This document shows positions 2,566 to 22,308 of a DNA stretch of 22,308 nucleotides, piece after piece (positions within the stretch are counted from its first letter, which is position 1; every line of letters starts with the position of its first letter). The position numbers and the translations under genes were made by a program. Where the stretch lies: IMG/VR virus record IMGVR_UViG_3300035661_002051, positions 1-22,308 of that record. One strand, written 5' to 3'. The stretch is from a virus. The notes beneath the pieces were generated by a model. It made no database searches and was not told where the DNA came from. It worked only from the letters and a program-made list of their open reading frames with translations.

Positions 2566-3114
2566 TCATTTCTTTGTTCTCCAATTGCACAACAGATTTA
2601 TATATGACCCATGCGTTAAAAGCTGCTTAGGGGTAGCACTGTTGATACATACTCCAATGCCAGGCTTAGTCTTCCCCCAGCCCCATACTGTACCGCCCTT
2701 TTTCATGGCTAGGGAATGATAATCGCCGCCAGAAATGGCTATAACATCAGTGAGCCCTAAAACCTGAACAGCGACATTGCTAGTGGAGTATTTCCCGTTG
2801 CCTAGTTGGCCATAACTGCCATTGCCCCAAGCCCAAACCGTGCCGTCATTTTTCAAGGCTAGGGTATGATATCCGCCCTCAGCAATGGCTGTTATACCGG
2901 CCAGCGCTGGCCCACCAACAGAAGTTACAACCTGAACAGGGGTATTCCTGCTAATATATGTTCCGTCGCCGAGTTCACCATTGTTATTTGTGCCCCAGGC
3001 CCATACCGTACCATCATTCAGTAAGACAATAACCCGTTTCACTCCGTTACCGGACTTAATGGCCGATATGACTGAGGATTCGTCAAATGGCTTTGACTTA
3101 GGTTTCTTGGTCAC
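2566..3114 (-). CDS. RCC1-repeat protein, short, probably inserted
   Basis: 182 residues with RCC1 (beta-propeller blade) repeats. Two clear copies carry the N/KNDGTVWAWGxNxxGxLGxGT signature (around 33-50 and 86-105). A third, degenerate copy lies at about 138-150 (GGTVWGWGKTKPG). Full RCC1 propellers have seven blades, so this is either a fragment or a short multimerising form. The C-terminal 35 residues fit the repeat poorly. The start is GTG with GGAGG six nt upstream. RCC1 repeats usually make binding surfaces; no catalytic role or partner can be read here. The gene sits between two 26-bp direct repeats that duplicate the junction of the flanking genes, so it looks like a cargo gene (moron) rather than a core replication gene. 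Confidence 0.8.
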   Translation of the reverse strand: MTKKPKSKPFDESSVISAIKSGNGVKRVIVLLNDGTVWAWGTNNNGELGDGTYISRNTPVQVVTSVGGPALAGITAIAEGGYHTLALKNDGTVWAWGNGSYGQLGNGKYSTSNVAVQVLGLTDVIAISGGDYHSLAMKKGGTVWGWGKTKPGIGVCINSATPKQLLTHGSYINLLCNWRTKK

Positions 3115-10642: not shown

Positions 10643-11188
10643 CTACTTGCCGAACTTCCACCCAAGGCCCAAACCTGTCTGGACTGTGTTGGCCACAGGA
10701 ACTACAAAGTTCTGAACGTGCCTGAACCTGGCGTCAACATACAGATAGAGGCCTTTGTAAAATTGGTACTGCAACCCAAAGCCAGCAGTGACACCGCCCT
10801 TGTGCACTCCGCCTCGGTCATACAAGGACATGCCCACCATGGCATAGACCAAAGCCTTGTCTCCTGGGTTGAACGTGTAACGGCCTTCAGCGTCAAAAAT
10901 GGTGTAGTTCACCGAACCGGCAGGGGGCAAATTGGTAGTAAAATTGTGGTAGTACGCCCAGTTGACTACATCAATGGTGTCTCTGCTCACAGAGAGGCCC
11001 GCAGACCAATGAGGGTCAAAATCAAACAGGAAAGACCCCTGTAGCTGGAACTGCGAGGTCTCCATGGCGTAGGGGTAACTCCCCTGAGCAGACCACAGAT
11101 GGCCAACACCAAGCTGGGTCTGAACCTGAGCCATGAGGGCAGTGGACATAACAAACAGAGCTACTATGATACAGAATTTCTTCATCAT
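10643..11188 (-). CDS. Secreted outer-membrane beta-barrel protein
   Basis: 181 residues from the ATG at 11188, chosen over a longer frame (11272) because GGAGG lies 5 nt upstream and a signal peptide starts exactly here: MMKK, a hydrophobic core (FCIIVALFVMSTAL), and a probable cut after ALMA. The mature part has alternating amphipathic strands (QFQLQGSFLFDF, HWSAGLSVSRD, GVTAGFGLQYQFY, LYLYVDARFRH, TVQTGLGLGWKF), enough for an eight-stranded barrel. It ends in an aromatic-rich strand, as OMPs do. It resembles generic OmpA/opacity-type barrels. In a phage it may alter the host surface, for example blocking adsorption of competing phages, or help disrupt the outer membrane at lysis. Its ribosome binding site overlaps the end of the holin-like gene. 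Confidence 0.75.
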   Translation of the reverse strand: MMKKFCIIVALFVMSTALMAQVQTQLGVGHLWSAQGSYPYAMETSQFQLQGSFLFDFDPHWSAGLSVSRDTIDVVNWAYYHNFTTNLPPAGSVNYTIFDAEGRYTFNPGDKALVYAMVGMSLYDRGGVHKGGVTAGFGLQYQFYKGLYLYVDARFRHVQNFVVPVANTVQTGLGLGWKFGK

Positions 11189-11189
11189 C

Positions 11190-11465
11190 TCAACCTCCTT
11201 CTTGGGTTGTATCTGGTGTATCTGGTGTATCTGTAGAGCTAGGCTTTCTGTACGACAACTTGCTAGTTGCACCGATGCCCGTGGCTCTAGCTAGTAAAAT
11301 GCCAAGGCACGTTATGACACCACCATCTGCGTACTGGGTAATTGTCGCAGGTATCACCTCCTTCCAGTAATTGCCACTGATGTCTAGCGCCAAGCAAATA
11401 GCCAGCGCTAACAGTGCGTATCTAGTTGTGTTACTCTCTAAAAAGTGTACTTGAGGCTTTTCCAT
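11190..11465 (-). CDS. Holin-like small membrane protein
   Basis: 91 residues. There are two likely membrane segments, RYALLALAICLALDI (15-29) and DGGVITCLGILLARATG (47-63), joined by a short loop, then a polar tail ending in DTPDTPDTT repeats. Size, topology and position near two wall hydrolases fit a class II holin, which would form membrane lesions that release the endolysin. Sequence alone does not prove this; a small accessory membrane protein is the alternative. The start has an AGGAGG site with a 4-nt spacer. The C-terminal repeat comes from a 9-bp tandem DNA repeat at 11210-11233. Confidence 0.5.
   Translation of the reverse strand: MEKPQVHFLESNTTRYALLALAICLALDISGNYWKEVIPATITQYADGGVITCLGILLARATGIGATSKLSYRKPSSTDTPDTPDTTQEGG
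11194..11198 (-). promoter_or_regulatory. Ribosome binding site fixing the start of the OMP gene
   Basis: GGAGG five nt before two consecutive ATG codons (11188 and 11185). It lies in the last codons of the holin-like gene. It excludes the longer in-frame start at 11272, which would place 28 residues in front of a perfect signal peptide. Confidence 0.75.
11210..11233. repeat. Short 9-bp tandem repeat
   Basis: tatctggtg occurs twice and then partially a third time. It encodes the DTPDTPDT tail of the holin-like protein. Probably slippage in a tolerant, disordered region. Confidence 0.8.
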
Positions 11466-11473
11466 GTTCCCTC

Positions 11474-12844
11474 CTAATACATGCCCTTTTCAACAAGGTG
11501 CAAAGGAACTGTGCCAGAGGTACTTAGCTGTACTTTTGGCTCTTGAGGAATAGATTGTCCTACGAAAGGAGCATCAACTGCGCGCAAGGGCTTTATATCC
11601 TCATTGTGGTACACACCCATTATTTCGCCCAGCTTTTGGGCATAGGCTCTTCTAGAATGATTTCTCAAAGCTCTCCAGAAACCCCTCTGTTCCCTAGAAC
11701 TCAACAGAGCTTCCATGGCTTCCATAGCTATATGACGGTAGTATGTATGGGCTAGTTCTCCTTTCATAAAGCAGCTGGCGTGTAGATTGCCAAATCTAGC
11801 ATAAATCACTTCCTGGCCACCAAACTCTTGAAACTTGTTGCAAGGCAGGTCTGCGTTAAGTATCAGCAATTGACGGTTTGCCATTGCCTCAAGCATAATC
11901 AGTGAACAAGTTTCTGATAAACTTGTTTGTATGAACAGGTTTGCCAGCCTATTCAAAGAAGATACATCATGCCGGCCCAGCCCCAATTCTGATTTGCATA
12001 CTTCAGAAGTAAAGCAAAAGTCTTTATTACACACTAAACCTTCATCCGCAGCATGGTCCTTGAGCCGAGCAATAGTGTCTAGGCTTTCTTGGGAATTAGA
12101 AAAGGAGTTGACTATGATTCCTCTAATGCTGATTCCTAGTTCTTTGAAGGCAGCTACCATACTCAACCAGACATCAATTTGTTTGCCTTCGCTCAGCCTA
12201 GTTGGATAAATGGTAATGATGTCTGCGTCTTCTAGACGCATGGCTTTGTAGAGGCTTGACACTTCTGGAGAAAGCTCAAAAAAGTCTGGCAAATCAATAG
12301 GGTTGAATGCTCCGAACACCCTGTCAGTTTGATACCTTTCTGCCACTGCCTGGAGGTCACTACAGTTATTGTAGATAACACTTTCTTGTTCTTTTAGCTC
12401 ATACATAGTGTTGAATGGCGCACCTAGGTCTTTATGGTCAGCAGGAGCTGAATGTATCAAATGGTACACCTTAATGTTCGGCAAGTGCTCCAAAGCAACC
12501 CACAAAGCCCAACGATATTGCATGTACCAGCTCTGCATGATTAAATCGTTGGCTAATAGGACATCAATGTCTTTCAATGCTTGAATCATGGGTTCAACAA
12601 GCAGCTGGGCATTGTCATACCAATGCTCGTCTAACGGTGTGCCGCCTAACCAGTCTTCCATTTTCAGGTTAGGTAAATATCTTCTTTCCCCAGTAAACTC
12701 CTTGGGGTGTTCTCCTCCTTCTGTGTTTATAAATACAGGGTTTAACCCCAAATCTTGTAGCCCCAACAGTTGATTGCGGACTACAGTACTAATTGAGTAC
12801 GCAGGCAGATATCCCCCTATGATTCCAAGCACTGCCAGTTTCAT
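11474..12844 (-). CDS. GT-B fold glycosyltransferase (GT4-like)
   Basis: 456 residues. The N-terminal Rossmann-like start MKLAVLGIIGGYLP is followed by a central SGxxR-like region IIIYPTRLSEGKQID-type strand (about 209-224), and the GT4 hallmark E-x7-E at 311-319 in SLSETCSLIMLEAMANRQ. Such enzymes move a sugar from an activated nucleotide donor with retention of configuration. The acceptor is unknown: modified phage DNA, a host envelope glycan or a phage structural protein are all possible. The gene lies 24 nt after the poly-threonine/Hint tail gene, which makes the Thr linker an interesting candidate acceptor. The last ~45 residues are Pro/Val-rich and probably flexible. AAGGAGATAGAGG precedes the ATG. 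Confidence 0.78.
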   Translation of the reverse strand: MKLAVLGIIGGYLPAYSISTVVRNQLLGLQDLGLNPVFINTEGGEHPKEFTGERRYLPNLKMEDWLGGTPLDEHWYDNAQLLVEPMIQALKDIDVLLANDLIMQSWYMQYRWALWVALEHLPNIKVYHLIHSAPADHKDLGAPFNTMYELKEQESVIYNNCSDLQAVAERYQTDRVFGAFNPIDLPDFFELSPEVSSLYKAMRLEDADIITIYPTRLSEGKQIDVWLSMVAAFKELGISIRGIIVNSFSNSQESLDTIARLKDHAADEGLVCNKDFCFTSEVCKSELGLGRHDVSSLNRLANLFIQTSLSETCSLIMLEAMANRQLLILNADLPCNKFQEFGGQEVIYARFGNLHASCFMKGELAHTYYRHIAMEAMEALLSSREQRGFWRALRNHSRRAYAQKLGEIMGVYHNEDIKPLRAVDAPFVGQSIPQEPKVQLSTSGTVPLHLVEKGMY

Positions 12845-12868: not shown

Positions 12869-14899
12869 TCACTGGTCCATCTTCACGTTGCTGATTAAGA
12901 TACCATTTGCAAAGTAGTTATGCAGCTCAGTTGTAAGGTTCCACACAGTTTTTATTGATATTTCAAAGGCGTCATACCTAACTTCTGACGCGCCTTTGTC
13001 TAAGACGTAGCATCTAGCAGCAAGTTTGTCTTTATCCATGTAGCCAGCTGGGCTGTATTCTTGCTTGTCATCACGCCAGACCTTGTGGTCCGGGGTAATC
13101 AGCAACCCTACATCTTCTGTATAAAGGCGTCTCAACTTGTAAGTTCCTACATGCTTCATCACCTTTAGCACTTTTTGAGGCACTATGCTGCCGTCTGGAG
13201 AACGCCCCAGTATGATATCTCCAACTTTGATGTTTTCAATGGCGGTGCTCTTACCTTCTGGTTGAGCGATAGCAGACTGGCCATATATACAACCACTCCC
13301 ACCACCAGAAGAAGTAGTAGTCGTTGTGGTTGTTGTGGTAGTGGTCGTAGTGGTGCTTGAGGAAGTAGTAGTCGTTGTTCCTGTTCCAGTTGTTGTAGTG
13401 CCTGTAGTGGTCGTTGTTGTGGTAGTCGTTGTGGTCGTTGTAGTCGTTGTGGTAGTGCCTGACCCAAGCCCTCCGAGGGGGTCATTGATATGCGGGCAAT
13501 AACGGGTGATAGACTTGGACCTCTCCAGCTTAACTGCTGAAATCAATACAGTACAAGCCTCCAAGTTGGAATGTATCTTGTAGACAGGGCGAACTACCAC
13601 AGTACGGCCATACGTGTTCTTCCACCCATTGTAATACAGTATAACCCACTGCCCCAAGGAGCTGGCTGGAAGTTGCTCAGTATCTAAGGTAACTGTTTCA
13701 ATTGCAGTAGTACCATCTTTCTCATATACCGCCAGTTGTATCATGTAGTAAGACCCAGTAGCAGATAAAGAACCTGAGTTAAGTTTGACTATAGCCTGAG
13801 CTGAGAGATAGCCTCCTGGGGGCACTAAGTGCCCATACGCAGTTTTGGGGGATAGTGTAGCACTTCCAACGGCGGTATTTACTGCAGTGTACTTTAGTGC
13901 CCCGTATCCAATGAGTCCAGCAGTTGGGTCAATGACGAAAGTTGGTGTACCAGTTCCTGTGTCTAAAGTGACTACTGCATCCCATTCGTTCATAGCTATT
14001 GGGTTTGCGCTACTATATGTCCCAAAGAAGCTGTTGGGGAGTAGGTTTGTTAGAGAGTAATGGTATGTATCCAAGTCAACCAGTTTATGTGGGTATCCTA
14101 CTTCAGCAGGCACATTGGCTATATGATGGTTGTACACGCCTTGAAGCCAGCGTATGCTGGTTTTTACCCATACAGGTATGCTAGAAGGAGTTGCTTGATA
14201 GGTTTGACCCAAGTCTATAAACTGGTCACCTAATGACACCCCGCTGATAGAAGGCCCAATAGCCCAAACCAGGTAGGCAGCAGCAGCTGTTGATGGGGTA
14301 GTCTGCCCAAGAACTCCAGAAGTTGTAACAACATTATGGCCATTAACGTAAGAAACTACCAGGTCTTCAAACCAAGATGTTAGTGACTGAGGCTGCACAA
14401 GTTGTACCCTAACCACTCTACCTGCAGCATTTATGTTGTGCAGTAGAGTGTCTAGAACAAGTGTTAAAGTTCCGTTACCGTTATCTGTAACACTATCAGG
14501 AGCAGAGATTTCTCCTATAACCTCGTATATCTTGCCGTACTCAATTGCTCCTGTTTTGGGGTTGGGCTCTGGCTCACTAACTAATTCTCCATACTTAAAC
14601 CCATAATACAAGGTCAGGGCTGTTCCTGTTGGTATAGCTATGTTCTGGTAGTTAGGCCAGCTCAGCACGTTACCATTGTTGTCTATACCAAACCCTGACA
14701 AAATAGACATTTTGTCAACTAGTTGAGTAGTAAGACCCCCAAAAGCAAATAGACCTGCGTATGGGTAACAGGTCCTAGCAAACTGCCTAGTTTTCTCAGT
14801 AAGGTAGTCTAGAAATTGTTCACGGATGTCAGTCAGTCCCATCAGGTTCTTAGGGTAAACATTCACCTTACTTTTTAGCATTTCTACTCTGGTAGTCAT
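12869..14899 (-). CDS. Tail/adhesin protein with poly-Thr linker and C-terminal Hint autoprocessing domain
   Basis: 676 residues in three parts. Residues 1-480 look like a virion structural or receptor-binding protein: a helical start, then beta-rich repeats, with a carbohydrate-binding-like jelly-roll suggested at about 300-465. Residues 482-536 are a linker with 42 threonines plus Gly/Ser. Residues 537-671 form a Hint domain: Cys537 at the splice-like N-terminus (GSG-CIYGQSAI), IENIKVGDIILG, LLITPDHKVW with T602 and H605, VWNLTTELHNYFANG with H660, and the terminal ILISN with Asn671. The usual penultimate His is Ser670, and only VKMDQ follows, so full protein splicing is unlikely. N-terminal cleavage, release or cross-linking as in bacterial intein-like domains is more plausible. 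ATGA overlap with the gpI-like gene places it in the baseplate operon. Confidence 0.85.
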   Translation of the reverse strand: MTTRVEMLKSKVNVYPKNLMGLTDIREQFLDYLTEKTRQFARTCYPYAGLFAFGGLTTQLVDKMSILSGFGIDNNGNVLSWPNYQNIAIPTGTALTLYYGFKYGELVSEPEPNPKTGAIEYGKIYEVIGEISAPDSVTDNGNGTLTLVLDTLLHNINAAGRVVRVQLVQPQSLTSWFEDLVVSYVNGHNVVTTSGVLGQTTPSTAAAAYLVWAIGPSISGVSLGDQFIDLGQTYQATPSSIPVWVKTSIRWLQGVYNHHIANVPAEVGYPHKLVDLDTYHYSLTNLLPNSFFGTYSSANPIAMNEWDAVVTLDTGTGTPTFVIDPTAGLIGYGALKYTAVNTAVGSATLSPKTAYGHLVPPGGYLSAQAIVKLNSGSLSATGSYYMIQLAVYEKDGTTAIETVTLDTEQLPASSLGQWVILYYNGWKNTYGRTVVVRPVYKIHSNLEACTVLISAVKLERSKSITRYCPHINDPLGGLGSGTTTTTTTTTTTTTTTTTTGTTTTGTGTTTTTSSSTTTTTTTTTTTTTTSSGGGSGCIYGQSAIAQPEGKSTAIENIKVGDIILGRSPDGSIVPQKVLKVMKHVGTYKLRRLYTEDVGLLITPDHKVWRDDKQEYSPAGYMDKDKLAARCYVLDKGASEVRYDAFEISIKTVWNLTTELHNYFANGILISNVKMDQ
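12887..13291 (-). other. Hint domain (bacterial intein-like) coding segment
   Basis: 135 residues, the size of mini-Hint domains without a homing endonuclease. Blocks A (Cys537), B (T602-x2-H605) and F (LHNYFANG) are present. The block G dipeptide is Ser-Asn instead of His-Asn. Confidence 0.8.
13292..13456 (-). repeat. Threonine-rich linker, ACN codon repeat
   Basis: Encodes residues 482-536: runs of 18, 4, 1, 5 and 14 threonines separated by Gly or Ser, ending SSGGGSG before the Hint Cys. All four ACN codons are intermixed without a simple period. Confidence 0.9.
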
Positions 14900-16440
14900 G
14901 TTCCTAGCTCCTCTGTGTATGTGGGAATAGGCAGTACTGCCAGCTCAACTAACTGGAAGCCGTTCCCGGACAACTTCCAAACCCCAGACATGGTGTTAGC
15001 AATAGGGCCATCTGACACTTGTAGTATATTATTCCCATCAACATATGCCTGTAAAACAGTGCCTTCCCGAGCAAATGATATTCTGTGTATAATGCCTCTG
15101 CTGTCGTAAGTACCAGTGGCCAAAGTGGTGGAGCCTCTGGCGATAGTAGCAACACCACCGCTCAAAACAAGGCTATAACTTGCAGGAGTATTAGGAGGCC
15201 CACTAGCATTCAAATCTATACGAACTGTGCCCATGTTTTCTACTTGTATTGATACCATGTAATCCTTAGCACCTAAATACTTGTCTGTGTCACAGGATTC
15301 AACCCAAGCTGTACCGTCACTTGGGAACACTATGTATCCTGTATTCTGGTCTATGGTAATCAAATCGCTCATGTACAAGTTATCAGAAAGATTAAAAGGG
15401 GCAATATGCCTTTCATACACAAGGTGTAATTTGAACTTCTCGCCAGTTGGCCTCATATAAGAAGCTATGCTAGAAATTAGTGGTAGAGACTCATAGTAAC
15501 TCAAGGATGAAGACAGTTGATAAGAAATTCCTGCGCTTGGGGAACCTACAACTTGGTTGGTCCAAGTATCTTTGTAACAAAATAAGGGGTAAACATAACC
15601 ATTAGTCACTAGCATAACCCTGCGGATTCTAATTCGGTACTGCCCGACGCCATCATTATTATCATACAAAGCAAGAGCATAAAGATTTATGTTGCTTGGT
15701 ATAGGAAAAATGCGTCTAATCCATTTGCCTAAATTTGCCCCTGGGGAATTGATGTTTAAGTTCATAGGATAGCCAAATTGGTCTTGTACTGTTGATGAAG
15801 CTGCTACCCAAGAACCATTAATAAGCAAGTCTAAGCCCATTTTGGCTCCTGGGCCGTCAACCAAGAACTCTGCTATTAGCTGCGTAGGTATGTTGCCTGG
15901 AGACACGTTCAAATTCTTAAATATAACCCTCAAAGGTCCTAAGTTGGCTTGGCTCCTATTGGTTATCAAAGATATTTCTTGCCAGTATGGAACTTTTAGA
16001 TATAAGTCTGTAGTGCACAGGTCTACTGGGGTTAGAGCGAAATTGTCTTCTCCTACAGCTTTGTCTTCTAAGAGCCATCTGAAATCAAATTGCTCATCAT
16101 AAGAAGACTCTATGCTTCCTATGGCATTAAAATGAGCGTTAATGCCTTTCTTAATTGACTTGACCTTCCACAAAGATATCAACTGCTGAATCAATCTTCT
16201 CTTTTGGTATTCTTGAAGTTGGCTCGCCACAGATTGTGGCATCCCCAAAGTGTTTAACAAGTAGTCAATTTGGTCACTCTTCAGTTCTGAATATGGGCTA
16301 TAGAGACCTCTAAGGGAATCTAGTTTATTCCAAGCATTATCATAAACTGCTTGGAATCCAGCAACAAATTTCTCAAGTATGCCGTCTTCATCAGAATCCC
16401 TAACCGCTTTGATAATGAACTTGTAAACGTCGTAGGACAT
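14896..16440 (-). CDS. Baseplate/tail protein I-like with C-terminal LamG-like domain
   Basis: 514 residues. Residues 1-110 match the phage tail protein I (gpI) type: LGMPQSVASQLQEYQKRRLIQQLISLWKVKSIKKGINAHF recalls the family's conserved R-R-L-I and K-G-T-x-x-G/A-I region, as in baseplate wedge proteins next to gpJ. The middle is beta-rich. Residues ~385-510 (starting near DYMVSIQVENMG, with GIIHRISFAREG and LQAYVDGN) resemble a concanavalin/LamG jelly-roll that could bind glycans. It would link the baseplate to fibres or adhesins, consistent with the next gene being the Hint-bearing tail protein (ATGA overlap). It follows gpJ by 8 nt. An AGGAG site precedes the ATG. Confidence 0.72.
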   Translation of the reverse strand: MSYDVYKFIIKAVRDSDEDGILEKFVAGFQAVYDNAWNKLDSLRGLYSPYSELKSDQIDYLLNTLGMPQSVASQLQEYQKRRLIQQLISLWKVKSIKKGINAHFNAIGSIESSYDEQFDFRWLLEDKAVGEDNFALTPVDLCTTDLYLKVPYWQEISLITNRSQANLGPLRVIFKNLNVSPGNIPTQLIAEFLVDGPGAKMGLDLLINGSWVAASSTVQDQFGYPMNLNINSPGANLGKWIRRIFPIPSNINLYALALYDNNDGVGQYRIRIRRVMLVTNGYVYPLFCYKDTWTNQVVGSPSAGISYQLSSSLSYYESLPLISSIASYMRPTGEKFKLHLVYERHIAPFNLSDNLYMSDLITIDQNTGYIVFPSDGTAWVESCDTDKYLGAKDYMVSIQVENMGTVRIDLNASGPPNTPASYSLVLSGGVATIARGSTTLATGTYDSRGIIHRISFAREGTVLQAYVDGNNILQVSDGPIANTMSGVWKLSGNGFQLVELAVLPIPTYTEELGT

Positions 16441-16448
16441 AGTTTCTC

Positions 16449-18332
16449 CTAGACTGCACGTACATCCAATGAAATGTCAGACAGCTCTACAATAGGCAAT
16501 TCGTTAGCAGCCAATTGCACATCTGAAGTAGGAGAATAGAGCACAACATTTCCTACATTAGGAACATCTTGTATAGTGGCTATGATAACAGAAATTGGTA
16601 CTCTTCCATTAAAGTTCCACTGCCAAGTAATAGACCCATCGTCAGCAGTTCTAGTAGCGAGAGGCTGGAACTTAGCTAACAATGCTGCTATTATGTCATT
16701 CCTATTCCCGCCATGAACCAAGGCAGATATAGAAATATGCCTGGGGGTGTAGTTAATCAAAGAAAGCCTTTTGTTGACTTGCAGTATGCCACTTTTCTTA
16801 TCGTTGAAGTAGTTTTCTATACTTGTCATAACAGAAGAATCAATTAAGCCGCCCCCGCTACCAACAAGCACAGCAACTATTGACCCTGTGCCCATCCCTT
16901 CGTCTATGATGTTTACTCTACTTGCGGGAGAACTTCCTGAGCCTGTAGCGTTATTAAGCAGAAAATACTCCAAATCTGCGTTAGTCACTGCTCGGGAGTT
17001 AGTGCTGGCCCATAGTGGTATATTTTGCTTAAGAAATTCCAGTGGGGCAAATGCGCTTTTGAACCCAGCAGCAGACCTAGGATTGGTGAACGACAGTACT
17101 TTGCCACCAGTGTCTCCTCCGCTAATGCTATACGCAGGAACATTCCCCCCAGAAGTTACAGAGACTGTCCTATAAGAAACAGAAATGACTGCTCCATACG
17201 CAGGAACTTTGCCTGTTGTGCCATCTCCAAATGATAAATAGATATGGTTTTCTGAGTCTACAACATATGTAAATACCAAGTCATTAGGCCCAGCCAGCCC
17301 CATATACTTCTGCCTTAGCCACTGTGACTGCTGAGTACCTTCCATAACTTCGATAGTTTCCAAACTTCCTTCTACCAAGCCCACATTACCCAGCTGGAAG
17401 GTTTGATTGGCAACCCCTGTTGAGGTAAAAGACTCATTTCTGGTTATACCTTGAGTGACAAGTAATTTTATCCACTTGTCCCCAGTGTCAGCGTCAACCA
17501 TGTCTCCAGTGCCAGACGGGTATTTAGAAGTTAGAGTTGGAAGAGTAGAACCCACATCAACTTGTGTTATTCTGAACCTTACCCAGTATCTTGCTTCAGA
17601 GTCAATGCTCATGGTCTCCCAATCAGCATTTATCTGTTGTGGCAAAGAGAAGTTTACTGTACCACTGTGGTCTAAGTTGCCTGTGTTATCAACTCCATGA
17701 GGTATTGGCGCCCATACCTCATATAGACCGTCCCAATACTCCCAAACTCCTTGCCAAGTAGCGCCTTCGCTCAAAGCGAAGTTTAGAGAAGTGAACATTG
17801 TTTCTAGCCCAAAGTATATGCAGTCTCCAATTTGTACAGGAACCACATCTTGGTATGGAGAACTAAAATACTGATTTTGTAGAGAACTGTAGTATTTGAT
17901 AGACACAGTCTTAGTGTCATACAACACAAATGCTTCTAAGTTCTCAAAGTTAATTGCTGCTCCTGTATTAACATCTTTAGCGCTAAAGGAGGAAAGGGCA
18001 GGCAGTACTGTAGTCTGTTGAGTGATATCTGCGGATAACTTACCTACAACTGTTGCTACTGCTGGAGAAAACTGAGAAAATGGGTAGCCCAGGGTGTTGC
18101 CTATATTGATGGCGGACTGTAGCAATTTGGCTGTAGGAAGTGCTAATTCGTTAGCAAGTATATCTATGTTGCAATTAACAAGATGCCCAACAAGAGCCAT
18201 CATACGCTCAAGCTGAGTTTCTGGAGCGTAAGGAGAAAAGTCGGGGAGTTGCTTGATATTTCTCCTACGAAACTCCTGTAGGGCCTCCAGAATTGCTTTG
18301 TAATAAAAAGCAGTAAACTTAAAGTCCGCCAT
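16449..18332 (-). CDS. Baseplate J-like protein (wedge)
   Basis: 627 residues. The best-conserved segment is SFTNPRSAAGFKSAFAPLEFLKQNIPLW followed by NSRAVTNADLEYFLL. This matches the gpJ signature in which a NP-x-A-x-G-G stretch precedes R-A-V-T-x-x-D-y-e. SFGDGTTGKVP around 370-380 is another recurring gpJ motif. It is longer than P2 gpJ (about 300 residues), as in large contractile-tail and injection-system homologues. It would form the inner baseplate wedge with the gp25-like and gpI-like products on either side. GAGGT lies four nt before the ATG; the gap from the upstream gene is 2 nt. Confidence 0.82.
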   Translation of the reverse strand: MADFKFTAFYYKAILEALQEFRRRNIKQLPDFSPYAPETQLERMMALVGHLVNCNIDILANELALPTAKLLQSAINIGNTLGYPFSQFSPAVATVVGKLSADITQQTTVLPALSSFSAKDVNTGAAINFENLEAFVLYDTKTVSIKYYSSLQNQYFSSPYQDVVPVQIGDCIYFGLETMFTSLNFALSEGATWQGVWEYWDGLYEVWAPIPHGVDNTGNLDHSGTVNFSLPQQINADWETMSIDSEARYWVRFRITQVDVGSTLPTLTSKYPSGTGDMVDADTGDKWIKLLVTQGITRNESFTSTGVANQTFQLGNVGLVEGSLETIEVMEGTQQSQWLRQKYMGLAGPNDLVFTYVVDSENHIYLSFGDGTTGKVPAYGAVISVSYRTVSVTSGGNVPAYSISGGDTGGKVLSFTNPRSAAGFKSAFAPLEFLKQNIPLWASTNSRAVTNADLEYFLLNNATGSGSSPASRVNIIDEGMGTGSIVAVLVGSGGGLIDSSVMTSIENYFNDKKSGILQVNKRLSLINYTPRHISISALVHGGNRNDIIAALLAKFQPLATRTADDGSITWQWNFNGRVPISVIIATIQDVPNVGNVVLYSPTSDVQLAANELPIVELSDISLDVRAV

Positions 18333-18334
18333 GG

Positions 18335-18742
18335 CTACCTCACCAGGTCAACAGGGAGCAAATCCCCTAGAGTAATTTCTTGATTAAATGGTAGATATCT
18401 AGCTCTAGCAGTCAACCCAACTCTGCCGCCATCTACGTCAGACTTGGTATTTACTTCTAGCAACCTAAACCTGTCAACAAATTCGTCAAACATGTCTGAC
18501 ACAGCCTTTTGAACCATGGGGGCTTGACCATTGTTAATTGAGAATATCATTTGAGGGTCTAAGCCAAGAGTCTGAAATGGGTTTTCTGACTCGCAGTCTG
18601 ACATAGCTAACCTAACTAAGAACGCGCTGTGCACTATACCTGATGGCGTATCCACTGAGTACAGTAAATGGCCACCTCTACTGTACGGAGCATGCAACCC
18701 TTGAAATGGCAGAGCCTGCTGTAAAAACTTATCTCTATTCAT
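18335..18742 (-). CDS. Baseplate wedge protein, possibly gp25/GPW-like
   Basis: 135 residues. Length and position, directly before gpJ, are those of the T4 gp25/P2 gpW wedge proteins. Features fitting that family are a start with FLQQALPFQ, a central helical segment MVQKAVSDMFDEFVDRF followed by a beta-rich end (GGRVGLTARARYLPF). Sequence similarity is weak by eye, so the assignment leans on synteny. It overlaps the upstream gene by 8 nt and is followed by gpJ after 2 nt. If correct, it would anchor the wedge to the sheath initiation site. Confidence 0.45.
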   Translation of the reverse strand: MNRDKFLQQALPFQGLHAPYSRGGHLLYSVDTPSGIVHSAFLVRLAMSDCESENPFQTLGLDPQMIFSINNGQAPMVQKAVSDMFDEFVDRFRLLEVNTKSDVDGGRVGLTARARYLPFNQEITLGDLLPVDLVR

Positions 18743-19316
18743 CAGTCATCCTACTATCATAGAAAGCCAGTAACTGGTCCAAAACCTGGCATATGTAACT
18801 ATCTGGAGCCAATGCCTCTTTAGAGAGTTCTGATTTGGCTGGTACTATGTACTGCCCACCAACTCCTAAGTCTAGGATATTTAACTGCCTTAAGAGGATA
18901 CCCAACTCAGGATTGTTATACACCCTTCTAGCGATATCCTCAAACACCAAACTGCTCAGTGGTGAAGGGCCTAAGCCATAAGCCTGGTCTGCAGGGTAGT
19001 TTGGCAAAGCATAATCAAACATCACTGTTTTACCTAGTGTAGCAGCATTGAAATCTATATGTACAACTACCCAGTTACCGTTAGAATCATGTATTTGTAC
19101 TACACCACTGCCAAATATTGCTTGCACACCTGTATTAAGATGTAGGTAAGAATCACCTGTATAGCCTGGTGGCGCGCATTCCCACTCTAGCGTAGAGTAT
19201 CTGGGTATACGACTGTGCCTCAGTACAGATATGCCAGGTATGGTATCAGGGTGGCTGCCGTCTTGAGAGACAGTAATCAAATTGCCAATAGTGTCTGTCA
19301 ACTGAACCTTATCCAT
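18735..19316 (-). CDS. Unknown baseplate-operon protein (193 residues)
   Basis: Not recognised. The first half is beta-rich with many Gly/Pro/Ser turns (GYTGDSYLHLNTGVQAIFGSGVV split by turns). The second half is helical (LVFEDIARRVYNNPELGILLRQLN, and YICQVLDQLLAFYDSR). There is no signal peptide, membrane segment or catalytic motif. It starts by a one-base TAATG overlap after the tube/LysM-like gene and overlaps the gp25-like gene by 8 nt, so it is very likely a virion assembly or baseplate component. The helical C-terminus could be an interaction tail. Confidence 0.65.
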   Translation of the reverse strand: MDKVQLTDTIGNLITVSQDGSHPDTIPGISVLRHSRIPRYSTLEWECAPPGYTGDSYLHLNTGVQAIFGSGVVQIHDSNGNWVVVHIDFNAATLGKTVMFDYALPNYPADQAYGLGPSPLSSLVFEDIARRVYNNPELGILLRQLNILDLGVGGQYIVPAKSELSKEALAPDSYICQVLDQLLAFYDSRMTDE

Positions 19317-20032
19317 TACAAATGTTCCTTATTAGGGTCAGGAGCGTCTTCCCCGCCGCCTGGTGCACCTAAATCTGCTAGTGGGTCTTTAGCCCCTTTA
19401 CTCTTGCGCGTAGCCGCCTTGTCCTGAGTGTCTTCCTTTACTGTGTAGAAAGCAGTGTCTTGAGGTACTTTATTGGTGGTTGTAGGTTCTGGTAGAGGAG
19501 AGTACTCTACAAGTTCTACAGAAACAGTAATTGTTCTGCTCACTTTACCATCAAAACAATTTTCTGACAATTCAGCAGAAAAGTCTCTGATGTAACCATC
19601 CCATGCTTTCAACCCAGGCATCAACACAGTAACTATAGGCAGTGAACCATCCTTTTGACGGCTCAACTGGTTTCTAATGTTATCAAGAGCTTTGTAGTGG
19701 TCATAGGTCTTATCAATCTTGTAGTACATGGCCCTGATTGATATCACTTCTTCTCCACCAGAGCCTATGATAGGTATGCCCTTATCACTCCGGATACCTT
19801 TATGTATGGGGAGTTCGTTGTTCCTATGTATAGACAGCGGGGGGTTAAACTGGAATCTAAACTGTTCTCCTGTTTTCTTATCCACCAACCAGCACTCTGA
19901 AGGAGCGCCTTTTGACTGGCTTTTGCCTTGATAAGGGATAGGAATTGTAGGTAGCCCAGGAAGAAGCATTTCTGGGCTAGGAATATTCAGCAGCTGAGCC
20001 CCCAATTGTACTGGATTCGGTAAACCAGGCAT
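19316..20032 (-). CDS. Contractile tail tube/LysM-type baseplate adaptor, probable
   Basis: 238 residues. ECWLVDKKTGEQFRFQFNPPLSIHR (about 47-71) resembles the start of contractile-injection-system tube/adaptor proteins, in which a F-x-F-N-P motif follows a short beta hairpin. A mid-chain IVTVLMPGLKAWDGYIRDFSAE segment and ISVELVEYSPL-type strand (ITVSVELVEYSP) also fit that fold. AFYTVKEDTQDKAA near 208-220 may be the start of a degenerate LysM motif, as in gp53- or Afp7-like proteins. The C-terminal ~25 residues are Gly/Pro/Asp-rich and disordered. The place between spike and wedge genes supports a hub-wedge adaptor. GAGGT sits five nt before the ATG. Confidence 0.5.
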   Translation of the reverse strand: MPGLPNPVQLGAQLLNIPSPEMLLPGLPTIPIPYQGKSQSKGAPSECWLVDKKTGEQFRFQFNPPLSIHRNNELPIHKGIRSDKGIPIIGSGGEEVISIRAMYYKIDKTYDHYKALDNIRNQLSRQKDGSLPIVTVLMPGLKAWDGYIRDFSAELSENCFDGKVSRTITVSVELVEYSPLPEPTTTNKVPQDTAFYTVKEDTQDKAATRKSKGAKDPLADLGAPGGGEDAPDPNKEHL

Positions 20033-20159
20033 CAGTCACCTCAAATTGCTAATAGGATAATGCAGTTACTGCCATCACTCTGCACCGTTACTAACTTCTA
20101 ACGGCTGGTTGAGGAATAGTGCCAGCATTTATCCCACGTGCCATTGGTTCTCCTCAATG
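20033..20159. other. 127-nt gap with SD-led mini-ORF
   Basis: This is the largest gap in the tail block. On the minus strand GAGGAG is followed by ATG (20144) and 17 codons ending at TAG (20091). A second frame, shifted by -1, stays open from 20097 to a TGA at 20041, immediately before the next gene's ribosome binding site. Read together with a -1 shift these give a 34-residue product. No classic slippery heptamer is present, so a decayed gene, an error or chance are possible. Confidence 0.3.
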
Positions 20160-20768
20160 TCATTTCAAGCACAAACCGACAGCAGAAGCTTCTGCTGTTG
20201 GCCTAGATATTGCTCCAACTCCAGAACCTCCTGCGCACATTGCAAACTTAGCATCTACAGCAGCCTTCAAGTCATCTATAGCTTTTTGTAGGTCAGCCTT
20301 ACGAACTATGCCGTCATCTGCTGTAAGACCCTTCTTGCCAACCTCAAATAGTGGTGTTTCAAAGTAAACATCAGTTGCTGAAACAACTTTTACATCACCA
20401 GTGCTCAGAACTGTAATGACCTTGTTTTTGGCGTCGAACAGCACGTAGCCCATGTCTCTGAATTTGATGATAGCTCTATTGGGGTAGTCCTGTTTCACCT
20501 CGTCTGGGACGTCCTCGGGCTTCAGAGGGTGTGCTCCAAGGTACACTGGGTTATCAATAGACCCTGAAGGCAGTATCACTTGAATAGACGCACCTATTTT
20601 TGGCACCATAAACACAGCAGAAGACCCATCACAAACTGGGAACTGAGGCTCCGCCCAATTGGGGTGCTCTTTGCCTCCAAGCAACTCATCACTCTTGAAT
20701 TTGACCCTCCCCAGCTTAATCGGGTCTTCATTATTCGTAACGATTGCTGTAACCAAATTCACTAGCAT
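20160..20768 (-). CDS. Baseplate spike protein, gpV/gp5 OB-fold type
   Basis: 202 residues. The N-terminal ~95 residues are the OB-fold of the phage baseplate V/gp5 family: AIVTNNEDPIKLGRVKF, then WAEPQFPVCDGSSAVFMVPKIGASIQVIL and DNPVYLGAHP. These recall the family's G-R-V-x-V, W-x-r-v and P-x-x-G-x-x-V-x-V features. A beta-rich stretch (IIKFRDMGYVLFDAKNKVITVLSTGDVKVVSATDVYF) follows and may be a short triple-beta spike. A helical segment and a Gly/Ala/Ser tail come after. As a trimer it should pierce the outer membrane at the tip of the tail tube. It starts by a TAATG one-base overlap with the hub gene. Confidence 0.82.
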   Translation of the reverse strand: MLVNLVTAIVTNNEDPIKLGRVKFKSDELLGGKEHPNWAEPQFPVCDGSSAVFMVPKIGASIQVILPSGSIDNPVYLGAHPLKPEDVPDEVKQDYPNRAIIKFRDMGYVLFDAKNKVITVLSTGDVKVVSATDVYFETPLFEVGKKGLTADDGIVRKADLQKAIDDLKAAVDAKFAMCAGGSGVGAISRPTAEASAVGLCLK

Positions 20769-21787
20769 TATGACACCCTGTACAAGTCAAGTTCTGTGGT
20801 AAACACAAAGTCTTCCCCAGAAATTATGTGATGTGTGTACTCATTGATTCTGTAATTCCCGTCTAAGCTAGGGAAGAACTTGGGTGTTATGCCTTTGAAC
20901 TGGTGTATTTCTCCTATCTTCAACTGCTCATTACCAAGCACAATGGCCTTGGCAGTCATATAGGTCTCATTACGCTGTTTGACTAGCCCATCAAAGAATG
21001 CCTTAGCTTCTTTGCCATTCTGAAATCTTAGGCCACTGATTACTTCTCTAACAGTAGCATCACCAGCTACTTCTGCCTCTAGCATGATAGGCCCTCTTTC
21101 TTCTGCTAAGAAAGCTACCATTTTAATTTGGGCCTTATGCTCTACTTCTCCAGAGACTTCTGGCGAAAATGAATTCACAGGGCTAGGATTAGCAGAGTAG
21201 TCATACACAAATGTCTGCTTTTGCCCGATACTACGTGGCGCGTGGAAGTGCATAACCCACTTTCTTTTGAACACGTCGAACTCAAAGTAGAATTCGTACC
21301 CGTTGCGCATAGCAAGGTCTCTGAGGAACTCAAAATCAGTGAGTTTTGATTGTATTCGTGATACAGTGGCTTGAGTATCTTCAATGTCTGTTTGTACACC
21401 GTATTTGCCAGCTATAGTACGTGCTATCTCAGAATCTTTAGTATTGTTATACGTTTCGTCTTCGTGTTTAACTGCCATATCCCTGCCCTTGTCCCTGGCG
21501 ATGACAGTCAACCTTTGGCTTGCTATATCAAGCCTGTGCTTATGTATTATTCCTGCCCCTAGAAATGTTTCGTTGCCCCAGCCACCAAATAGTACAACTT
21601 CCCTCCCCTTAGAAAGAATGTACTTGGTGCTAGAGTTGTCCTCTACAAGAGGGCAAGTTAGGTCTATTTGCATTTCTGCCATTATATCTCTGGTTTTATT
21701 GAATGAAATTCTGTTGATAAGTGCCTTCAACCCGTTGTCTATTGGGGTATTGTCTAAGTCCATAGACCAGGAGAATTTGTCTTCCAT
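20768..21787 (-). CDS. Baseplate hub protein, gpD/gp27-like
   Basis: 339 residues matching the phage late control D family: KHRLDIASQRLTVIARDKGRDMA, the KTSEIARTIAGKYG-like segment (DSEIARTIAGKYGVQTDI), LTDFEFLRDLAMRNGYEFYFEFD (a highly characteristic stretch), and the later GLRFQNGKEAKAFFDGLVKQRNETYMTAKAIVLG that resembles the family's A-x-A-x-L segment. The C-terminal HHIISGEDFVFTTELDLYRV strand is also typical. It forms the trimeric hub joining tail tube and spike, whose gene follows with a one-base overlap. The start abuts the upstream stop (TAAATG). Confidence 0.85.
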   Translation of the reverse strand: MEDKFSWSMDLDNTPIDNGLKALINRISFNKTRDIMAEMQIDLTCPLVEDNSSTKYILSKGREVVLFGGWGNETFLGAGIIHKHRLDIASQRLTVIARDKGRDMAVKHEDETYNNTKDSEIARTIAGKYGVQTDIEDTQATVSRIQSKLTDFEFLRDLAMRNGYEFYFEFDVFKRKWVMHFHAPRSIGQKQTFVYDYSANPSPVNSFSPEVSGEVEHKAQIKMVAFLAEERGPIMLEAEVAGDATVREVISGLRFQNGKEAKAFFDGLVKQRNETYMTAKAIVLGNEQLKIGEIHQFKGITPKFFPSLDGNYRINEYTHHIISGEDFVFTTELDLYRVS

Positions 21788-22308
21788 TTAGAATGGCCTT
21801 CCAGAAGAAGCCCCCAAAGAGGCCGCCAGCCCTTCGGAGACAGTCTTCTGCCGTTTGACTATTGCGCCTGCGCGTTCTGCTTCTTCCTTGCCGGAGGCTT
21901 GGACAGTAGCAAACAGCTTCTGGTCACCTACGATAAGGGTAGCATTGACTGTAATAGGATTGGCCTTCAATAACTTACGGAAGTCTTCAACGTTTAACCC
22001 TTGTAGGGCTTGCCCTTCAAACTCCTGGGCTTTTGGAGAAGTCTTGCCTCCCCAATGTGCAGTGAACCCTATGTTGTCGCTCCACCCCATAACAAATTGA
22101 GACCCTGGGAACTTTGTGTTTACTTCAGTAGATATGTAATCAGCCATGGCCTTGTGCGCGATACGGAGTTTTTCGTCATCTGAGAGATTAGGATTGGCTT
22201 TAAGCGCTCTAGCTAGAGCCTCAGTACCAGCTACCATAGCTGAGGCAGAAGTAGCATTGGTTGTTGTAATACCGTACTTCTGGGATAACTTGTTCCTAAA
22301 TTGTTCCC
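21788..22308 (-). CDS. Probable tail tape-measure protein, C-terminal end (partial)
   Basis: The 173 codons visible (the 5' part lies beyond the right edge) stay open to the window end, beginning EQFRNKLSQKYGITTTNATS. An internal ATG at 22237 is not a convincing start. The fragment is Ala/Lys/Glu-rich and helical, with a beta-rich middle (NATLIVGDQKLFATVQASG) and a Gly/Ser tail. Tape-measure genes usually precede the hub gene in contractile-tail phages, and the C-terminus of such proteins is like this in composition. The call rests mainly on position. Another hub-associated protein is possible. Confidence 0.45.
   Translation of the reverse strand, partial: EQFRNKLSQKYGITTTNATSASAMVAGTEALARALKANPNLSDDEKLRIAHKAMADYISTEVNTKFPGSQFVMGWSDNIGFTAHWGGKTSPKAQEFEGQALQGLNVEDFRKLLKANPITVNATLIVGDQKLFATVQASGKEEAERAGAIVKRQKTVSEGLAASLGASSGRPF

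Follow-up and report, generated by a model that had tools for sequence, protein, structure and literature searches.

A Candidate Autoprocessing Hint Domain at the C-Terminus of a Phage Tail Protein

Introduction

The tail protein of an uncultivated virus described here ends in a Hint domain which, on balance, we take to be an autoprocessing domain of the bacterial intein-like (BIL) kind, most like type A, that would form a thioester at Gly536-Cys537 and then detach. Inteins, Hedgehog and secreted bacterial proteins are the established settings of Hint autoprocessing. No description of the process in phage tails was found in the open-access full-text literature searched, where queries linking Hint to tail fibres, tape measures or structural proteins led to enzyme inteins or to nothing. 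Viral tail proteins carry a similar Hint architecture in independent cases, and the sequences suggest that some phage tails may cut their own proteins, or link them chemically, in the course of assembly. If the domains are active, tails have a maturation or cross-linking step of their own that needs no protease, and this would bear on the trimming of tape measures, tip proteins and fibres and would provide a source of new small self-cleaving domains for protein chemistry.

The Tail Gene and Its Operon

The window, by which we mean the whole stretch of DNA analysed, is an entire IMG/VR record of 22,308 bases and represents a fragment of an uncultivated virus. The tail protein gene lies at 12869..14899 on the minus strand, as an ORF of 676 aa with its ATG at 14899 and its TGA stop at 12871-12869. 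The initial annotation had named no strand; the ORF reads 14899→12869, and the plus strand across 12869-14899 contains stops throughout. The start of the gene overlaps by four bases the stop (14896) of the upstream TIGR02242 tail gene, in agreement with the baseplate-operon location first proposed: the baseplate/tail operon directly upstream (14896..22237, minus strand) encodes a protein with a gpI-like TIGR02242 domain, a baseplate wedge protein (phrog_219, E=7e-14), a gp25-like protein, gpV (PF04717, E=1.7e-11) and a gpD-like hub.

The next gene (11474..12844, minus strand) encodes a GT4-like glycosyltransferase (PF00534, E=4.3e-4, below the curated cut-off). Its ATG follows the tail gene stop codon by 24 bp, no terminator-like site was found in the gap, and the two genes probably share a transcript. 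They are in the same frame with TGA and TAA between them, and the glycosyltransferase gene has its own Shine-Dalgarno-like AGGAGA. Gene order suggests that this enzyme is a candidate modifier, by O-glycosylation, of the Thr/Ser linker described below. Two further genes of the fragment, at 2566-3114 and 10643-11272, code for a protein with RCC1 repeats (PF00415, E=1.6e-24) and for a beta-barrel protein of the outer membrane (PF13505, E=8.5e-9).

The N-terminal part of the tail protein (residues 1-478; 13466..14899, minus strand) belongs to no recognised family. No Pfam, PHROG or NCBIfam domain was found in it, the label of adhesin originally given to the protein stays putative, residues 1-479 matching no family, and a single-sequence fold of residues 1-479 was uninformative (pLDDT 31.5). 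The tail protein had no match by tblastn against 50,697 phage records, nor did its N-terminal part in IMG/VR, where close relatives of the N-terminal part, of the Hint alone, of the gpI-like protein or of the baseplate protein were likewise not found. Direct reading reveals a low-complexity linker at residues 479-536 (13292..13465, minus strand), 58 residues comprising 42 Thr, 7 Ser and 9 Gly, with GGGSG immediately before Cys537. The Hint domain follows at residues 537-671 (12887..13291, minus strand) and, after it, the protein closes with the C-terminal tail VKMDQ (12872..12886, minus strand).

Identity of the Hint Domain

Profile, structural model and invariant residues together identify residues 537-671 as a genuine Hint domain with the complete invariant catalytic set (C537, T602, H605, H660 and N671). 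Single Pfam models match weakly (Vint, E=0.01; Hint, E=0.073; both below the curated cut-offs), phmmer against the PDB gave marginal matches, the NrdJ-1 intein and a BIL among them, and tblastn to annotated phages reached 94% coverage for several inteins, including the vir335 terminase mini-intein. The initial annotation had called for a profile search of these residues, and its outcome is a significant match over the full length: a profile of 52 viral Hints, from which the window was excluded, recognises residues 537-671 at E=8.9e-19 and 62.7 bits, with mild circularity in that some members were fetched with the window as seed, most coming from a scan confirmed with L012 as the leading sequence. 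The alignment spans all 133 positions and its final position is exactly N671; among 2000 shuffles the highest score was 12.4 bits.

The AlphaFold model of the Hint, built from 40 sequences, has a pLDDT of 86.3 and a pTM of 0.83. Foldseek matches it with a probability of 1.00 to inteins, BILs and Hedgehog, the top PDB structures being BIL2 of T. thermophila (6y75, 1.4e-9), the DnaB intein (1mi8), NrdJ-1 (8ubs), the Hedgehog Hint (1at0, E=3.7e-7) and the C. thermocellum BIL (2lwy). All of the invariant columns of a 40-row alignment of viral Hints, namely Cys1, the block B His, the block F His, a Gly and the terminal Asn, are present in the window Hint. Cys537 (block A; 13289..13291) is the candidate thioester-forming residue and is invariant in the 40 rows; in the block B motif T602-P-D-H605 (TxxH; 13085..13096) the His is invariant and the Thr is found in at least 90% of them; His660 (block F; 12920..12922) is invariant; and in Ser670-Asn671 (block G; 12887..12892) the Asn is invariant and the first position is usually His, all of these features lying on the minus strand. 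The residues listed in the initial annotation, with five more after Asn671, are thus exactly as it described them.

In a tree of Hints the branch leading to the window domain is very long, at 2.75 changes per site, and no placement was found for it, and a genome scan with a Ser-Asn profile returned only distant bacterial and archaeal Hints. A further match, in Caudovirus D_HF5_2C (H28), turned out on inspection to be a chance match and not a Hint. The length of the branch, the loss of the block G His and the failure to find close relatives showing constraint are what an inactive or binding-only domain might display, a former intein or BIL that is now structural or decaying; we consider this unlikely, since the other five catalytic positions are intact, as are frame, boundaries and fold, the model is of high confidence, and Ser-Asn also occurs in the terminase inteins L002 and L010, where a working enzyme should need splicing.

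What Kind of Hint

An ordinary intein was considered and rejected. The +1 residue is Val672, not Cys, Ser or Thr, and the in-frame sequence after the TGA stop reads TTT GAT TAA ahead of the next gene, so that beyond five residues no C-extein is left; the initial annotation was therefore right that no useful extein follows and that this is not an intein interrupting an essential gene. Inteins interrupt proteins that are intact in relatives; here the Hint is at the end of the protein with nothing as large as an extein after it, and no homologue of the tail protein without a Hint was found in phage records or IMG/VR. A hidden C-extein reached by readthrough was discarded as well, because TGA and TAA precede the next gene, which has its own Shine-Dalgarno-like site.

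The same region bears on the polymorphic toxins, in which a pretoxin Hint precedes a toxin. Among the bacterial relatives from the genome scan are long proteins (L120-L122 and L125) in which 89-154 residues follow the Hint, a layout that points to a toxin role, and the window Hint might be the remnant of such a cassette with the toxin lost. This is extremely improbable: no domain, toxin-size extension or readthrough frame lies downstream, there are two in-frame stops and then a glycosyltransferase gene, and the tail operon setting recurs in unrelated phages.

With respect to the other classes, type B BILs have no intein-like block G, which here reads FANGILISN with the Asn present, and Hedgehog Hints are followed by a sterol- or adduct-recognition region, in whose place only VKMDQ is found. 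The resemblance to BILs noted initially is borne out by the catalytic set, by the lack of a +1 nucleophile, as in type A, and by the Foldseek matches to BIL structures. Type A BILs sit in variable regions of their host proteins (PMC5874633), and the window Hint follows a low-complexity linker, no homologues of its host protein having been found in phage records or IMG/VR to compare. The published definition of type A BILs includes a His-Asn ending (PMC4031507); in Ser670-Asn671 the Asn is present and the His is absent, so strict membership fails on one residue and, from the sequence, a 'type-A-like' BIL is as far as the assignment can go.

The substitution of Ser-Asn for His-Asn, to which the initial annotation drew attention, is thus real, but it is not diagnostic of a special mechanism by itself because the same ending is shared by the terminase mini-inteins L002 (vir335 TerL) and L010 (...LVSN-C) and by the archaeal L126 (L126:145-591, a Thermoplasmata MAG), which has a VVC/C junction, the ending ...FANGILVSN and Ala at +1. 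In L126, as in the window Hint, Ser-Asn is combined with a non-nucleophilic +1 residue.

Hints on Viral Tail Proteins

Two profile scans of IMG/VR (35 loci; the best 80 of 321 confirmed) provided 53 non-redundant domains, the window's included, a panel that was chosen by similarity from the listed matches and is not a census. Among the matches listed, a +1 nucleophile is absent in 44 of the 53 Hints, 25 of these 44 having Lys at +1 and 21 of them Gly at -1. Flanks are richer in Gly, Pro, Ser and Thr in the Hints without the nucleophile (mean 0.45, vs 0.28 with it; p=0.012, for small groups).

The recognised hosts of the panel Hints are tail proteins. One is a gpJ protein (L065; phrog_31, E=3.9e-137) with a C-terminal Hint, ending GGGGGGGGG/C..HN/SKE; another, likewise with its Hint at the C-terminus, is a minor tail protein (L049; phrog_2048) encoded between tape measure and gpJ; two Hint proteins adjoin tail-tube genes (L012 and L046); and five gpJ-like tail tip proteins, recognised by Pfam, have an N-terminal Hint (L013, L089, L094, L102 and L103). 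In two tape measure proteins (L026 and L073) the Hint lies about 120 residues before the C-terminus, which we take to be roughly comparable to the place where the lambda tape measure (gpH) is trimmed. Nearly all tail-linked Hints retain the block G Asn, though the shortest have only 1-14 residues after it. Closely related copies of tail Hints are under purifying selection, with dN/dS of about 0.04-0.35 in the informative close pairs of relatives.

Further arrangements were observed in the panel. In L013, L089, L094, L096, L101, L102, L103, L106 and L113 the Hint starts 14-36 residues from the N-terminus, mostly with glycine-rich sequence on both sides; for L096, L101, L106 and L113 the likeness to gpJ is that of Hint and flanks. 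Viral proteins of ~620-915 aa carry two to four tandem C-terminal Hints (L031, L033, L035-L037, L039, L018, L050, L053, L059, L061, L064, L069 and L071) and often end in HN-K, HN-KK or HN-KV, some being cut by contig ends. L031 and L018 have a first Hint that seems degenerate, lacking Cys1, and their N-terminal half starts MKGTLFS-x-DFVKDSNGNLRLLE; this half matched no phage record (L031) and no PHROG (L050). In proline-rich viral proteins (L038, L074, L076-L080, L082-L084, L086-L088, L090, L097-L099, L105, L107 and L108) the Hint is placed between Pro-rich stretches, with junctions such as PPIM/CFVAGT ... SHN/KMPP and a dN of 0-0.01 in the pairs tested.

Cultured phages have related proteins (L115:5083-6525, L119:1577-3028 and L118:3554-4507). 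In Achromobacter phages JWF and 2-1 a tail-fibre-like protein encoded after the baseplate hub ends in a Hint-like domain, annotated in the JWF record as 'Hom_end-associated Hint family protein', and a similar tail-module protein of Providencia phage PSTNGR1 does so too; the three Hints have a diverged C-terminal half and no terminal His-Asn. Both Achromobacter proteins show a CNCDCNC stretch just ahead of the Hint, and a radical SAM or sulfatase-maturase-like gene is found two genes downstream at both loci. The remaining Hint matches in the phage collection are mostly on enzymes such as terminases, helicases and methylases. The arrangement is therefore not a one-off: Hints are found repeatedly in uncultivated phages, on tail proteins unrelated to one another, where they look selected, and cultured phages add three cases on tail or tail-module proteins.

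Proposed Mechanism

The autoprocessing reading draws on the profile, the fold, the catalytic residues, the recurrence on tail proteins and the selection seen on relatives; we have counted against it the Ser in place of the type A penultimate His, the very long branch together with the failure to find a close relative of the gene, and the retention of Asn671 with only five residues downstream. In the proposed pathway, Cys537, aided by T602 and H605, would attack the Gly536 carbonyl and form a thioester by an N-to-S acyl shift, and the thioester would then yield to water or to an amine, for which the amino group of Val672, freed after cyclisation of Asn671, is a possible candidate. By analogy with the studied BILs and with Hedgehog, we infer that the Hint, of roughly 15.5 kDa, would leave the tail protein, whose mature end would be ...SSGGGSG, or ...GGGSG-VKMDQ if religated. 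The likely benefit would be a maturation step, in which the Hint either assists folding or assembly before being shed or, by leaving, sets the time at which the stalk is exposed. For type A BILs, which have no +1 nucleophile, the main outcome is cleavage, and splicing can proceed by aminolysis (PMC4031507). Given this predominance of cleavage in the BILs studied, we favour release of the Hint by hydrolysis or aminolysis.

Splicing without a side-chain nucleophile would instead make the domain a self-removing insert, tolerated in the linker, that joins ...GGGSG to VKMDQ. Type A BIL splicing through the freed alpha-amino group has been described (PMC4031507), and several viral Hints, such as those N-terminal in gpJ, are flanked on both sides by glycine-rich stretches, which would make religation seamless; but the religated pentapeptide has no obvious value, the studied BILs give mainly cleavage products and no homing endonuclease is present, and we hold this outcome to be improbable.

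The Hedgehog Hint attaches cholesterol, and a comparable covalent ligation can be envisaged for the stalk tip, in which the Gly536 thioester reacts with an amine or hydroxyl belonging to a second virion protein, to a glycan or to a molecule on the host surface. The Gly/Cys junction shared with Hedgehog, the flexible exposed stalk, the frequent -1 Gly of the listed viral Hints, the lack of a useful downstream extein and the reactivity of BIL thioesters with amines (PMC4031507) are consistent with ligation. We nevertheless regard it as rather unlikely: no acceptor-binding domain comparable to the Hedgehog sterol-recognition region follows the Hint, the block G Asn is kept though Hedgehog needs none, and no candidate acceptor was found. 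It is similarly doubtful, in our estimate, that tail-protein Hints form a widespread undescribed tail maturation system in which, in some phages, that of the window included, a stalk-end thioester joins the tail tip covalently to a virion component or to the host surface. Detachment of the Hint remains our preferred reading.

Comparison With Known Systems

The C-terminal Hint of Hedgehog (1at0) shares with the window domain the C-terminal position, the junction and the fold, and differs in its sterol-recognition region and in the window's block G Asn. The terminase mini-inteins (L002 and L010) are about 30% identical to the window Hint along the entire domain and share with it an ending of the FANG-x-L-x-S-N type; unlike that terminal domain with Val at +1, they interrupt an enzyme, have Cys at +1 and need a C-extein. 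The reference type A BIL is that of C. thermocellum (2lwy; Amitai 2003 and Dassa 2004, as cited in PMC4031507). Type A BILs and the window domain have in common the Hint fold, Cys1, TxxH, the terminal Asn and the lack of a +1 nucleophile, and the placement of the former in non-conserved regions may be set beside the low-complexity linker of the latter; the type A ending is His-Asn, whereas the window Hint ends in Ser-Asn, with five residues after it, a phage tail protein as host and cleavage as the predicted outcome. The proteins of JWF, 2-1 and PSTNGR1 are likewise tail fibre or tail-module proteins ending in a Hint-like domain, but without a terminal His-Asn these domains are closer to type B BILs or Hint_2. 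The Hints of uncultivated phages (L065, L049/L058, L012, L094/L101 and L026/L073) also occupy low-complexity linkers of tail or tail-operon proteins, mostly without a nucleophile at +1 and several of them at the C-terminus; they differ from the window Hint in ending in His-Asn, in their Gly- or Pro-rich rather than Thr-rich linkers, in the tail proteins that carry them and in the +1 residue, which is often Lys, Gly or Ala, and Ser in L065.
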